From contig NZ_CP085442.1 in assembly GCF_023824195.1 (NCBI RefSeq), positions 1,340,001 to 1,404,000 on the forward strand: DNA of 64,000 bases, in the 5' to 3' direction. The notes beneath the pieces were generated by a model. That model was not told where the DNA came from and did not search any database. It saw only the letters and a program-made list of their open reading frames with translations. Position 1 is the stretch's first letter, and each line of letters opens with the position of its first letter. Both the position numbers and the translations under genes were made by a program. The stretch is from Priestia megaterium (GTDB lineage: Bacteria; Bacillota; Bacilli; Bacillales; Bacillaceae_H). Positions 51,557 to 55,618 of the stretch are shown in pieces.

Positions 51557-51598
51557 AAAAAAACGCCGAAGACAATCATGGTTCTTCGGCGTTTTTTT
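51557..51598. terminator. Terminator after the CotG-like gene (minus strand)
   Basis: Arms AAAAACGCCGAAG and CTTCGGCGTTTTT around a 12-nt loop, T-run in both directions; 27 nt beyond the CotG-like stop. Confidence 0.85.
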
Positions 51599-51624: not shown

Positions 51625-52053
51625 TTAAGAGCGGCGAGTAGAACGACGTGAACGGCGAGTAGAACGACGAGAGCGGCGAGTAGAACGACGTGAACGGCGA
51701 GTAGAACGACGAGAGCGGCGAGTAGAACGACGTGAACGGCGAGTAGAACGACGTGAACGGCGAGTAGAACGACGAGAGCGGCGAGTAGAACGACGAGAGC
51801 GGCGAGTAGAACGACGAGAGCGGCGAGTAGAACGACGTGAACGGCGAGTAGAACGACGAGAGCGGCGAGTAGAACGACGTGAACGGCGAGTAGAACGACG
51901 AGTAGAACGGCGGCTACTGCGACGAGTGCTACGAGAAGAGCGACGACGTCTTGTTAGTGGGCCGGCAGTTGGCTCTTGAAACATAAAAGATTTCAGTTCT
52001 GTACATTCTAGGGCTTCAGCAGCCTCTTTAATTTTTTCAGCTGTAATATGCAA
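51625..52053 (-). CDS. CotG-like Arg/Ser/Thr tandem-repeat spore coat protein
   Basis: A 142-residue protein. Residues 1-33 are a short unique head (MHITAEKIKEAAEALECTEL). The rest is almost only Arg, Ser and Thr, chiefly 13 tandem heptads of the type STRRSRR, giving an extremely basic, probably disordered chain. The start is TTG, 8 nt after AAGGAGG. It is divergent from cotH and near cotB genes, as cotG is in B. subtilis; CotG-like modular proteins near cotH are known from other bacilli. The dense Ser sites make it a plausible CotH substrate; this is inference. Confidence 0.8.
   Translation of the reverse strand: MHITAEKIKEAAEALECTELKSFMFQEPTAGPLTRRRRSSRSTRRSSRRSTRRSTRRSRRSTRRSRRSTRRSRRSTRRSRRSTRRSRRSTRRSRRSTRRSRRSTRRSRRSTRRSRRSTRRSRRSTRRSRRSTRRSRRSTRRS
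51628..51900. repeat. Thirteen tandem 21-bp units in the CotG-like gene
   Basis: Unit core CGGCGAGTAGAACGACG, repeated 13 times at exactly 21 bp. Two variants alternate irregularly, beginning AGAG (G) or TGAA (T); in plus-strand order G T G T G T T G G G T G T. Both encode the same heptad, because the variants differ only at synonymous Arg and Ser positions. Confidence 0.95.
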
Positions 52054-52224
52054 TACAAAAACCTCCTTGTCAATTGGACTAGGTCTTGCATTAATAGAAT
52101 ACGCGCTGATGCTTGTCCTTGATATGAGTCAAAAGTGGAGTTTGCGGAAATAGTTGATGTGGCGGGGTATCATGAAGAATTTTCCCTTCATATACTTTAA
52201 TAATTGAAGAAAGGTGGTCGAGTA

Positions 52225-53310
52225 ATGAAGCAAAAAGAAATCCCCCAATACGCTCTGTTTGTGAATGTAAAAGATTTAAAGGAAATGCAAAGAGATATTT
52301 GGTCAGAAGATGCTGTTCAGGCAACGATGAAGTTTAACAAAAAACGCTACGATATTGATTTGCTGCTAAGAGGCTCCCATATTCGAAAGATGAAAAAAAA
52401 GTCATATTATATTGAATTTTATTCTCCAAAAATATTTCAGGGTGCCAAAGAAATACACCTAAACGCTGAATACAAAGATCCATCGCTTATGCGCAACAAG
52501 TTGTCCCTTGATTTTTTCTCCTCCTTAGACGTTTTATCTCCGCACTCTCAGTTTGTCACTCTTAAAATTAATGGAAAAAATGAAGGAATATATCTGCAGC
52601 TTGAATCGGTAGATGAACTATTTTTGAAAAAAAGAAGTTTAGCGGATGGATCCATATTTTATGCAGTGGACGGAGATGCTAATTTTTCTTTGATGAGCGA
52701 CTTGGATAAAAAGCCGAAAACAACTCTGCTATCTGGATATGAAGATAAAGCAGTGAGAGAAGGGGATGAGGAAAAATTAGAAAAGTTTATATTTAATCTT
52801 AATACGTGGACAAATACAGAATTCGAACAGAATATTGAGAAGTATCTGAACGTCGACCGCTACTTATCTTGGTTAGTTGGTATTATTTGTATGCAGAATT
52901 ACGACGGTTTTGTCCATAATTATGCTCTCTATCTAAATCATGAAAGCGGGCGCTTTGAACTGATTCCATGGGATTATGATGCAACTTGGGGAAGAGATGT
53001 AAATGGGAAAGTAATGGAAGGAGATTACGTCCGTGCTCAGGGATTTAACACGCTTACAGCACGCTTATTGGCGGTAGATAGCATAAAAAAACGGTATATT
53101 CAAAAAATGAACAATGTTCTAAATAATCAATTTACAGTAGAGTATATGAAACCAATCATTTATCAACTGCATGAGTATATCGCTCCATACGCATTAAAAG
53201 ATCCTTACGTAAAAGATAACATGGAGCAATTTTATAAAGAACCCGACTTTATACTGTCTTTTGTAAAAGAACGAACAGCGTATATTAAAAACAACCTTTT
53301 GACTTTTTAA
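52225..53310 (+). CDS. cotH: CotH, spore coat protein kinase
   Basis: An atypical secretory-kinase-like (Fam20C-related) protein that in B. subtilis phosphorylates Ser in CotB and CotG and is needed for coat assembly. The product has 361 residues, one fewer than the B. subtilis protein. Landmarks are LLLRGSHIRKMKKKSY near residue 50, the catalytic segment MQNYDGFVHNYALY with Asp227, and PWDYDATWGRD with Asp250, equivalent to the active-site Asp pair. ATG 52225 has AAAGGTGG 7 nt upstream. Divergent from the CotG-like gene and followed by cotB. Confidence 0.93.
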   Translation: MKQKEIPQYALFVNVKDLKEMQRDIWSEDAVQATMKFNKKRYDIDLLLRGSHIRKMKKKSYYIEFYSPKIFQGAKEIHLNAEYKDPSLMRNKLSLDFFSSLDVLSPHSQFVTLKINGKNEGIYLQLESVDELFLKKRSLADGSIFYAVDGDANFSLMSDLDKKPKTTLLSGYEDKAVREGDEEKLEKFIFNLNTWTNTEFEQNIEKYLNVDRYLSWLVGIICMQNYDGFVHNYALYLNHESGRFELIPWDYDATWGRDVNGKVMEGDYVRAQGFNTLTARLLAVDSIKKRYIQKMNNVLNNQFTVEYMKPIIYQLHEYIAPYALKDPYVKDNMEQFYKEPDFILSFVKERTAYIKNNLLTF

Positions 53311-53320
53311 AAATGGATAG

Positions 53321-53367
53321 ATTTATAGGCAATTTATAGGCAACAGTGGATTTTGTTAATAATAGGC
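53321..53367 (+). promoter_or_regulatory. Candidate GerE boxes upstream of cotB
   Basis: ATTTATAGGCA occurs twice in direct tandem (53321-53331, 53332-53342) and a partial third, TAATAGGCA, at 53359-53367. The first fits 11 of 12 positions of the GerE consensus RWWTRGGYNNYY. In B. subtilis cotB needs SigK and GerE. A SigK -10 could not be placed with confidence. Confidence 0.45.
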
Positions 53368-53452
53368 AAATGCAGGAAATCAATAGCTGTACATGATACG
53401 TATATATACAGTATGAATGACCAATAAGGATAACTAATAAGGAGGAAAAACA

Positions 53453-54550
53453 ATGAGTAACTATTACTATGGCCAAGAACAAGGGCAAAATCAAAATCCA
53501 CGCCAAAAATCAACCCAAAAACTCAGCCGAAATGTACAAATGCCTGATAAAGGCTATTCTTCTCACTTCAAACCCCTAAAAGGAAGAGTGGTGACCGTTT
53601 ATCGTGGAGGACCTGAATCTAAAACAGGTTATTTGGTTGACGTGCAATCAGATTATTTAATCTTAGCGGTGGAAAGCAATAATAACAATAATAACAATAA
53701 TGGTGAAAATAACAATCAAAATAACAATCAAAATAACCAAAATAATAATCAACAAGAATATACACTTGTATATTATCACTTAGCCCATGTAAAAAGTATT
53801 ACTGAAGATACTATGTCAAATTCGGCACAAACGTTTACCGGAATTAGCACAGAATTAGAATTATATCGAGGAAAAACTTTTGCTGGAACTTTATCATTGA
53901 TGAAAACTAAATATGTGCAGGTTAACCAAGGTGGACCTGAGAAAAAAGCAGGTCAGCTTCTTGATGTCTTAGGTTCATTTGAATCTGCTTATATAGTATT
54001 ACTCACAGAGGACGACGGTGTTATCTATATTAACACTGAACACGTTAAGAGTGTGAGTGAATATCAAAACAACAATGGAGATCAAACTAGTCAATCTGCA
54101 AATGAGCTCTTAGTGAGCCAAGAACCAGAATATATGAAATCTAAAAGCTTTAACGATCTTTTTGCACATCTTTCTCATAAATGGGTATCTATCAATAATG
54201 GAGGACCTGAAGCTGTAGAGGGCGTGTTAGTACAAAGCCGAAATGGTACATTTACACTTGTGCAGAATAATCAAGTATTACGCTTACAGCCAAGACACGT
54301 TAAAACCATTTGTGTAGGAGCAAAAGGGGCTTTTAAGCAAAACGATAACAATCAAAATAATGAAGAAACAGAAGAAAATGGAGAGACTGAAGCTGCAAAG
54401 TCTACAGAAGAACGTACAGGAAGCCGCACGGGAGGACGCACAGACGATCGCTCTCGAGGACGCCGCACAGGAGGACGCCGCACGGGTTCACGCTCTTCAG
54501 CATCGGCCGAGAAAGTTATTAAAACGAAAAATTATCGTTGGAAAGCATGA
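53453..54550 (+). CDS. cotB: CotB-type spore coat protein (three GGPE repeats)
   Basis: An outer-coat protein of 365 residues. Three repeats of about 100 residues carry VTVYRGGPESKTGYLV, VQVNQGGPEKKAGQLL and VSINNGGPEAVEGVLV, with GGP at residues 52, 160 and 250, as in B. subtilis CotB. An Asn/Gln-rich loop lies at about 80-105. After a Gln/Glu stretch the C-terminus is a short Arg/Gly/Thr/Ser tail (about 320-355), much shorter than the Ser-rich tail that CotH phosphorylates in B. subtilis. GGAGG lies 8 nt upstream. Confidence 0.92.
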   Translation: MSNYYYGQEQGQNQNPRQKSTQKLSRNVQMPDKGYSSHFKPLKGRVVTVYRGGPESKTGYLVDVQSDYLILAVESNNNNNNNNGENNNQNNNQNNQNNNQQEYTLVYYHLAHVKSITEDTMSNSAQTFTGISTELELYRGKTFAGTLSLMKTKYVQVNQGGPEKKAGQLLDVLGSFESAYIVLLTEDDGVIYINTEHVKSVSEYQNNNGDQTSQSANELLVSQEPEYMKSKSFNDLFAHLSHKWVSINNGGPEAVEGVLVQSRNGTFTLVQNNQVLRLQPRHVKTICVGAKGAFKQNDNNQNNEETEENGETEAAKSTEERTGSRTGGRTDDRSRGRRTGGRRTGSRSSASAEKVIKTKNYRWKA

Positions 54551-54563
54551 TGAAATGGAACAT

Positions 54564-54590
54564 AAAAGGTGCTTATAAAGCACCTTTTCT
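54564..54590 (+). terminator. Hairpin between the two cotB-type genes
   Basis: Arms AAAAGGTGC and GCACCTTTT around TTATAAA, then TCTAT; a likely partial terminator. Confidence 0.65.
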
Positions 54591-54619
54591 ATCATATAGG
54601 AAAAAGGAGGAAAATGAGA

Positions 54620-55282
54620 ATGAGTATGAATCATTATATCAATAAAATTGTGGAGTTAGATATTTCAGGTAAAACGACATTTGTTGGCAGACTTATTGAT
54701 CTTGGATTAGATATTATGGTTTTGTATAATGGACATGATTATTTGTATATTCCTCTTTTACACATGCATCGTTTGCGGGAAGTATCGGAAGAAGACTATA
54801 CGGTTTTACGTGAAATAGAAGAGAACTTAATAGAAGAAAGTCAGCGGATTTCTTATCGTAATATTTTACAGCAGGCAAAAGGGAAATTTATTGAAATTTA
54901 TGTAACGGGAGGGAAATCATTGCATGGCTATATCACAAGCGTGCTGAATGATTATCTTGTGTTTTATTCTCCAGTGTATAAAAATGTCTTTGTTTCTCTG
55001 CATCATTTGAAATGGCTTACCCCTTACAGTAATGAGTTAACCCCTTATTCTTTAAGTGACAAAGAGCTCCCAGTAAGGCCCGCCTCTGCACCTTTTGTCA
55101 GAAACTTTGAAGAGCAGCTTAAAAAATATGAAAATCAACTGGTCGTATTAGATTTAGGGGATCAATCAGAAAAAATTGGTGTACTTAAAGAAGTTTCTAA
55201 TAATATTGTTGAACTAATTACGGCAAATGGAGAAAGTATGTATTGGAAGTTAGCTCACGTAAAATCCGTGCACTTGCCTTAG
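54620..55282 (+). CDS. Second CotB-like protein lacking the basic tail
   Basis: A 220-residue paralogue with two or three copies of the CotB-type barrel (DUF2642-like): FVGRLIDLGLDIMVLYN, FIEIYVTGGKSLHGYI and VVLDLGDQSEKIGVL, each followed by a strand ending like LLHMHRL, LHHLKWL and LAHVKSV. The GGPE motif is reduced to VTGGKS. No Arg/Ser tail. ATG 54620 gives the best spacing from AAGGAGG; 54614 is possible. Probably a coat protein assembled with the adjacent CotB. Confidence 0.75.
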   Translation: MSMNHYINKIVELDISGKTTFVGRLIDLGLDIMVLYNGHDYLYIPLLHMHRLREVSEEDYTVLREIEENLIEESQRISYRNILQQAKGKFIEIYVTGGKSLHGYITSVLNDYLVFYSPVYKNVFVSLHHLKWLTPYSNELTPYSLSDKELPVRPASAPFVRNFEEQLKKYENQLVVLDLGDQSEKIGVLKEVSNNIVELITANGESMYWKLAHVKSVHLP

Positions 55283-55449: not shown

Positions 55450-55618
55450 CTCTTATCAAGAGTGGCGGAGGGACTGGCCCTGCGATGCCCGGCAACCATC
55501 AAATGAAACATTCATTTGAACGGTGCTAATTCCTGTGGAACATCAGTATTGTTCTAACAGATGAGAGAAATCGTGTATAAACGAACACTCTTCCATCTGT
55601 GAAGAGTGTTTTTTATTT
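55450..55618 (+). promoter_or_regulatory. SAM-I riboswitch (S-box) with terminator and antiterminator
   Basis: The S-box core is clear: CTTATCAAGAG, GGCGGAGGGACTGGCCC, GATGCCCGGCAACC and GGTGCTAATTCCTG. The expression platform has terminator arms AACACTCTTC and GAAGAGTGTT with T-run (55584-55618). ACAGATG (55557-55563) pairs with CATCTGT (55594-55600) in the competing antiterminator. SAM binding would stop transcription of metI-metC. Confidence 0.97.

Follow-up and report, generated by a model that had tools for sequence, protein, structure and literature searches.

The cotG-cotH-cotB coat island of Priestia megaterium: an Arg/Ser-heptad CotG facing an intact cotH, with cases of kinase loss in the genus

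We have analysed a 64,000-nucleotide stretch of contig NZ_CP085442.1 from Priestia megaterium (host genome 5.98 Mb), which is referred to here as the window and whose own positions serve as coordinates throughout. An earlier note on this DNA had described an Arg/Ser (RS) repeat gene divergent from cotH and followed, beyond cotH, by two CotB-type genes, and all of these genes are present at the places claimed. Our analyses indicate that the island is very probably the CotG-CotH-CotB outer-coat phosphorylation module of the megaterium group of Priestia, the phosphorylation itself being carried over from Bacillus subtilis. The island is an ordinary member of a known coat module; its particular features are a lineage-specific layout of CotG and a small set of cases in the genus in which the kinase has been lost.

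The RS-repeat gene occupies positions 51625–52053 on the minus strand and encodes a protein of 142 amino acids (aa) from a TTG start, which stands behind an AAGGAGG site. Residues 3–28 (51970–52047, minus strand) match the NCBI model NF047410 (CotG_ExsB_Nterm) with 36.4 bits against a cut-off of 28, and since this head exceeds the curated CotG/ExsB cut-off and the gene is divergent to an intact cotH, the repeat protein is identified by its sequence as CotG itself, the long-known partner of CotH, and not as a new partner. Database proteins of P. megaterium that are 96–98% identical over a 45-residue query already bear the name "CotG/ExsB N-terminal domain-containing protein," and a comparison of CotG with Pfam returned no family up to E 0.1. 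Most of the remaining gene is a 21-bp tandem array (51628–51902, minus strand; 13.1 copies, score 459 in Tandem Repeats Finder) that codes for STRRSRR heptads. The 13 heptads counted previously are found as in-frame units with at least 5 of 7 matches, but only 11 are exact, and these 11 are encoded by just two DNA types that are synonymous with each other. The 114 residues that follow the QEP of the head include 61 Arg, 32 Ser, and 17 Thr and no acidic residue, and they supply the central basic, Ser/Thr-bearing tandem repeats of the CotG/ExsB family; the whole protein has 33 Ser and a net charge of +58.

The cotG frame is open in five close genomes, all of the megaterium group, in which the length of the protein ranges from 110 to 199 aa. 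In all five, CotG ends inside the array and is followed by an inverted repeat, located in the window at 51557–51598 just past the stop, which has A/T tracts on both sides and appears terminator-like in both directions by eye. The window CotG has no C-terminal module of the kind seen in the B. subtilis group; this module is treated here as a variable feature of the family, since many members have other ends. Among 76 untruncated cotH loci with record titles, a purely repeat-letter end (by our own pattern) was found only in P. aryabhattai (L081), and the CotG of L110 ends in repeats and one Trp. The possibility of a truncated or frameshifted CotG with its tail lying downstream was rejected, no such module being found in the approximately 85 bases past the stop in the five genomes, and that of a chance or non-coding repeat was rejected on the basis of the head model, the five open frames, and an excess of third-position changes described below.

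The divergent neighbour, cotH (52225–53310, plus strand), encodes an atypical coat protein kinase that matches PF08757 (E 3.6e-89) and, over residues 6–358, the Bacillus cereus CotH structure PDB 5jd9 (E 4.8e-128). Both Asp residues of the catalytic pair, D227 and D250, are present and are invariant in nine aligned CotH proteins; they are equivalent to B. subtilis D228 and D251 (numbering transferred via the Bacillus row L039 of the alignment), whose role has been described (PMC7821199). The nearest titled relative at cotH is P. aryabhattai (97% identity, in a search that may omit the window's own or very near genomes). Downstream lies an orthologue of cotB (53453–54550, plus strand), recognized by domain search and by comparison with other loci, whose core shows 32–51% local identity to CotB-like open reading frames (ORFs) at 25 other loci and 94% to that of P. 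aryabhattai. Its short tail of RTGGR/RTGSR type contains 7 Ser and 9 Thr in 66 residues, compared with up to 92 Ser in others, and is thus not a Ser-rich SKR tail. The second CotB-type gene (54620–55282, plus strand; ATG at 54620 or 54614) encodes a core-like domain that is kin to the CotB core by the same two lines of evidence and has no tail. Because the CotB tail is Ser-poor and the second protein is tail-less, both CotB-type proteins look like weak Ser substrates here.

The pairing of a CotG head with cotH extends well beyond the window. For this comparison, the best 80 of 283 relatives of CotH, with record titles, were scanned (two genomes gave two loci each) using a head model built from 10 seeds, taken from 10 of the 80 loci, at a threshold of E<=1e-3. 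A divergent gene with the head was found within 1.5 kb of cotH at 76 of the 80 loci in the first round (the 10 seed loci included) and at all 80 after iteration, while head matches elsewhere among 3842 ORFs numbered one and two, respectively, at the same threshold. This result speaks only for the nearer CotH relatives, being drawn from the best 80 of 283. According to a statement in a 2022 mBio paper (PMC9765600), members of the CotG-like family lack homologous primary sequence; our head model disagrees with this, and the shared head is already known to NCBI curators, whose model pools CotG and ExsB. A CotB-like ORF was present within the fetched flank of 26 of the 80 loci, and none was found within the 4-kb flank of the B. 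spizizenii locus L095.

The sequence following the head is basic and Ser/Thr-bearing at all 76 untruncated loci (median net charge +53), though the repeat units differ, with Lys/His-rich units in the B. subtilis-group and P. flexa-type loci and more Arg than Lys in 63 of the 76, one of which (L112) holds a masked stretch. An end of the WKDGNxW type was detected at 23 of the 80 loci by a strict pattern and at 31 of the 76 untruncated loci by a looser one. Across 397 genomes of the order, the head was found in 43 (42 by NF047410 at E<=0.001, 39 of them over the cut-off, and one more by our own model), and all 43 are among the 106 genomes that contain CotH (Fisher p about 1e-28, kinship ignored). 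Divergent neighbours of cotH account for 43 of the 56 NF047410 head places, in 41 of the 42 genomes. Two other ORFs with a CotG head lie near cotH but are not divergent to it (L157:5439–6101 and L104:5489–5701, both minus strand) and may be extra CotG copies. The locus L119, titled Arthrobacter beigongshangensis, has a cotG-cotH pair of the Bacilli type and is perhaps a mislabelled or mixed assembly.

Within the genus, cotH is present in eight of ten genomes, and the CotG head occurs in exactly these eight (that of G008 falls below the curated cut-off and was recovered by our own model), whereas neither of the two genomes that lack cotH, G005 and G007, has an intact CotG. The genes for CotB and the second CotB-type protein also occur in eight of the ten genomes, but these are a different eight, including the kinase-less G005 and G007 and excluding G002 and G004. 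Hence, CotG and CotH share one distribution and CotB has another. In G007, neither cotH nor cotG is seen between yppG and cotB, and tblastn with CotH and CotG queries was empty there. In G005, no CotH was found by tblastn at the locus and no PF08757 match in the genome, and cotB and a CotG-like ORF are divergent neighbours. This genome can be compared with its sister G008, to which it is 88–92% identical in metI, cotB2, and yppG and similar by eye in the DNA preceding cotG. The CotG of G008 has 208 residues with 19 RS dipeptides, while the CotG-like ORF of G005, with a likely GTG start, has 127 residues with 3 RS dipeptides and a net charge of −14 (−12 from an upstream TTG), and it retains the C-terminal end (IFRDGNQEELRF and IFQDGNQQELRF). 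The lack of an intact CotG in both kinase-less relatives is consistent with a dependence of the repeats on the kinase, and the collapse of the array in G005 parallels the genetics of B. subtilis, in which unphosphorylated CotG aggregates and deletion of its repeats relieves the cotH defect (PMC9765600, PMC4130616). The two genomes of P. flexa type, G002 and G004, keep cotG-cotH, and approximately 300 bp separate cotH from metI there, with no CotB-type genes found.

In B. subtilis, CotG is phosphorylated at multiple sites in a CotH-dependent manner, it is lost or aggregated when unphosphorylated, and removal of cotG or of its repeats brings relief (PMC4130616, PMC7821199, PMC9765600). We infer by orthology that the same mechanism applies to the CotG of Priestia, as regards phosphorylation and its stoichiometry as well as aggregation and the function of the head. 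The protein would be an intrinsically disordered Arg/Ser polycation, as its composition suggests, behind a 26-residue head; many of its Ser residues, and probably Thr residues as well, would be phosphorylated by CotH in the mother cell, as in B. subtilis; and the negative charge so added would prevent aggregation of the array and allow CotG to be docked by its head into the outer coat. A bare array would be harmful when the kinase is missing, so that cotG and cotH would be kept or lost together, or the array deleted. The suggestion that the repeat protein is a substrate of CotH is thus well supported by homology, synteny, and co-occurrence, although the substrate is CotG and not a novel partner. 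The core idea of charge neutralization is not new either, having been published for B. subtilis CotG in 2014 (PMC4130616) and 2022 (PMC9765600), and the proposed switch from strongly basic to near neutral would here take a charge of −2 on about 29 of the protein's 33 Ser to offset its +58; 15 phosphorylated residues have been reported for B. subtilis CotG (PMC9765600).

Each of the five megaterium-group genomes also carries a second, unlinked CotG gene (L069–L073) that encodes a similar head and a Cys-rich tail, and one CotH gene was found in each of them. In the window's own genome this gene (L069:4397–4756, equivalent to G000:C1:1189396–1189755) has Thr-rich tetrad repeats between the head and the tail. 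The repeats of the second CotG are of the type STRRTTRRTT, and past the head there is more Thr than Ser in all of these genomes but G003, which shows the opposite (20 Ser, 15 Thr). Among database proteins of this layout, the repeat region ranges from few units upward and the tail is nearly constant; one of them, P0028, is recorded as Bacillus thuringiensis on a 678-base contig and is possibly a mislabelled Priestia. The resemblance of the Cys-rich tail to the tail of the P. flexa-type CotG is weak, 37 of 2000 shuffles being as good. We found no earlier report of the array collapse or of the second CotG in the open-access literature, a scope outside which most subscription journals lie.

The composition of CotB tails was compared with CotH status in 43 genomes (18 without and 25 with CotH), chosen from 114 CotB-positive genomes mostly because the match spans the core, with many short single-domain matches omitted; the statistics carry no tree correction, and the G206 tail, delimited too early, still includes a core domain. 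The median number of Ser plus Thr is 6 in genomes lacking CotH and 16 in those possessing it (p 4e-4), and the corresponding medians for Arg are 2 and 7 (p 2e-4); with genus medians (12 without and 11 with CotH) the differences are modest (p 0.039 and 0.016, respectively). The spread of net charge also differs (standard deviation 4.6 without and 8.1 with CotH; Levene p 0.047), and several tails from CotH-lacking genomes are encoded mixed-charge runs (e.g., DKDKDK or KKDEKK). The association of tail composition with CotH status is a lead and not a proof. We put forward as a speculative proposal that CotH and basic Ser/Arg arrays form an obligate, addiction-like pair in which selection would act against unphosphorylated arrays, so that loss of the kinase would drive the loss or collapse of CotG, that in the coat proteins of kinase-less lineages phosphorylatable tails would tend to be replaced by genetically encoded mixed-charge tails (poly-DK, poly-KE), and that the one kinase of the megaterium group would serve two arrays, one linked and Ser-rich and the other unlinked and mostly Thr-rich. 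Our confidence in this proposal, never high, was lowered somewhat because two genomes that lack CotH, G262 (in which the match is broken by two stops) and G319, retain Arg/Ser-bearing CotB tails. The acidic mixed-charge tails of G332 and G043, which possess CotH, also run counter to the mixed-charge idea; G310 was counted as CotH-positive, although its only CotH is of the long type and its CotB tail is DK-rich; and the tail of G005 cannot clearly be ascribed to the loss of the kinase, since that of the CotH-bearing G008 is already acidic. If the proposal were true, it would provide a bacterial counterpart of the relation between phospho-RS and Arg/Asp-Glu mixed-charge domains.

A number of observations weigh against the interpretation of the island as a phosphorylation module built on a polycation that requires its kinase. 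No data on CotG phosphorylation in P. megaterium were found in the open-access literature. No head match was obtained in 63 of the 106 CotH-containing genomes of the order, which reflects either limited sensitivity or CotH without CotG. The net charge of the CotB tails has a median of +3 both with and without CotH (p 0.89). The intact CotG of G008 has a net charge of just +9, owing to an acidic stretch, so that not every intact CotG is strongly positive. For array collapse following kinase loss there is a single case, G005, whose CotG head has also decayed and is found by neither head model, and for this reason relaxed selection is a possible explanation as well. Lastly, codon comparisons give weak evidence of selection on the array when its units are taken without regard to similarity. 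In 73 units from the five megaterium-group genomes, differences from the consensus unit number 47, 35, and 132 at codon positions 1, 2, and 3, and 119 of 162 changed codons are synonymous, but this test is biased toward synonymous change, as the units were picked by protein similarity. When each array is instead compared with itself at an offset of 21, which involves no picking, the mismatches are 98, 54, and 143, with 87 synonymous and 99 non-synonymous codons; the array keeps a third-position excess, which is much weaker, and the protein also changes.

These codon counts bear directly on the view that the array is a DNA repeat subject to slippage, free to vary in length and unit, and that the protein has little function outside its head. 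The wide range of CotG lengths among the five close genomes, the turnover of units between species, and the database protein P0006 from P. megaterium, which is out of frame within the array (a real change or a sequencing error), speak for this view, and the slight excess of non-synonymous over synonymous codons in the unpicked comparison led us to raise its standing slightly; the third-position excess that persists between copies (stronger, with the bias noted, in picked units) and the basic, Ser/Thr-bearing composition at every untruncated locus speak against it, and we consider it very unlikely. A different view accepts a function for the array and dispenses with its phosphorylation: a permanently cationic polymer would bind anionic components of the coat, cortex, or crust, and CotH would serve other substrates. 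The repeats of B. subtilis CotG have been reported to act as a spacer that sets permeability, and less charged repeats to assemble without phosphorylation (PMC9765600), which lends this view some substance. Against it stand the presence of CotH in all 43 head-bearing genomes and the state of the CotH-less G005, in which the array is nearly gone and the C-terminal end kept. We judge it to be very unlikely.

The unlinked CotG raises the further possibility that it is the main structural CotG and that the cotH-linked copy is a degenerate, tail-less duplicate. The linked protein does end inside its array with no C-terminal module in all five genomes, and the second retains its nearly constant Cys-rich tail; the linked copy nevertheless keeps its frame open in the five genomes and occupies the conserved divergent place, and both its head and the intergenic region are well conserved. 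We regard its degeneracy as unlikely. The reading of the island as a CotG-CotH-CotB phosphorylation module is preferred over all three.

In comparison with cotG-cotH-cotB of B. subtilis (made via B. subtilis-group loci and published papers), the window shares the CotG head, the basic Ser-bearing repeats, the divergent cotG/cotH arrangement, and both catalytic Asp residues of CotH. It differs in having Arg heptads where B. subtilis has Lys/His-rich units, in the Ser-poor CotB tail, and in the absence from CotG of a C-terminal module such as the WKDGNxW-type end of the B. subtilis group. The B. subtilis repeats have been proposed to act as a spacer between N and C termini that are both tied to CotB (PMC9765600); the window CotG has no such C terminus. 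With ExsB of the B. cereus group, CotG shares a place in the same NCBI N-terminal model and a basic repeat region. Phosphorylation of ExsB at multiple Thr residues, most likely by a homologue of CotH, has been reported (PMC7821199), while in the window CotG Ser predominates beyond the head; the unlinked paralogue, in which Thr predominates in four of the five genomes, is nearer to ExsB in composition.

The likeness to eukaryotic SR proteins that had been pointed out for the heptads is reasonable as a functional analogy only; domain searches revealed no domain in common with these proteins or their kinases. A dense RS array and a kinase expected to offset the Arg charge are common to CotG-CotH and to SR proteins with their kinase SRPK, but CotG has no RNA-recognition domain and a structural role in the coat, and its kinase is of family PF08757. 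Dephosphorylation has been reported to make Arg-rich RNA-binding proteins less soluble (PMC8569591), and a survey of RS domains across life makes no mention in its main text of CotG, Bacillus, or spore (PMC9479744). The island offers a bacterial candidate for a kinase substrate that is SR-like and very regular, and the genus provides ready comparisons between genomes that have kept or lost the kinase, have kept or lost CotB, and carry a single CotG gene or two; these make it testable in vivo whether multisite phosphorylation chiefly prevents polycation aggregation during assembly. The shared head, in addition, allows genes described as non-homologous in a recent paper to be defined as a single family.

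The divergent intergenic region between cotG and cotH spans 171 bp (52054–52224). On its cotH side, CATATACT at 52189 is a putative SigE/K −10-like sequence and serves as a lead only; the aligned stretch 52000–52230 is 98% conserved in the five genomes, and because this holds for the whole stretch, conservation says little about the site. A sigma-70 promoter scan gave no useful result. The inverted repeat past the cotG stop is similar by eye in the five genomes, though a consensus scan did not list it. The cotH promoter of B. subtilis is located past the 3′ end of cotG (PMC4130616, PMC7821199), and because the terminator-like repeat occupies that place here, the cotH promoter is predicted to be local, inside the 171-bp gap.

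Upstream of cotB, a block around ACGTATATATACAGTATGA at 53395–53420 is common to the window's own genome, G005, G007, and G008, and suggests that cotB may have its own promoter; the TAGGC boxes that precede it are presumably GerE-like. The core of this block occurs in just 4 of the 80 titled loci. The island is preceded by relatives of yppF and yppG, identified by domain search, and followed by two genes that we take, from their sequence, to be methionine genes of the pyridoxal-phosphate (PLP) type. An S-adenosylmethionine (SAM) riboswitch (RF00162, 85.2 bits) at 55450–55567 precedes these methionine genes.

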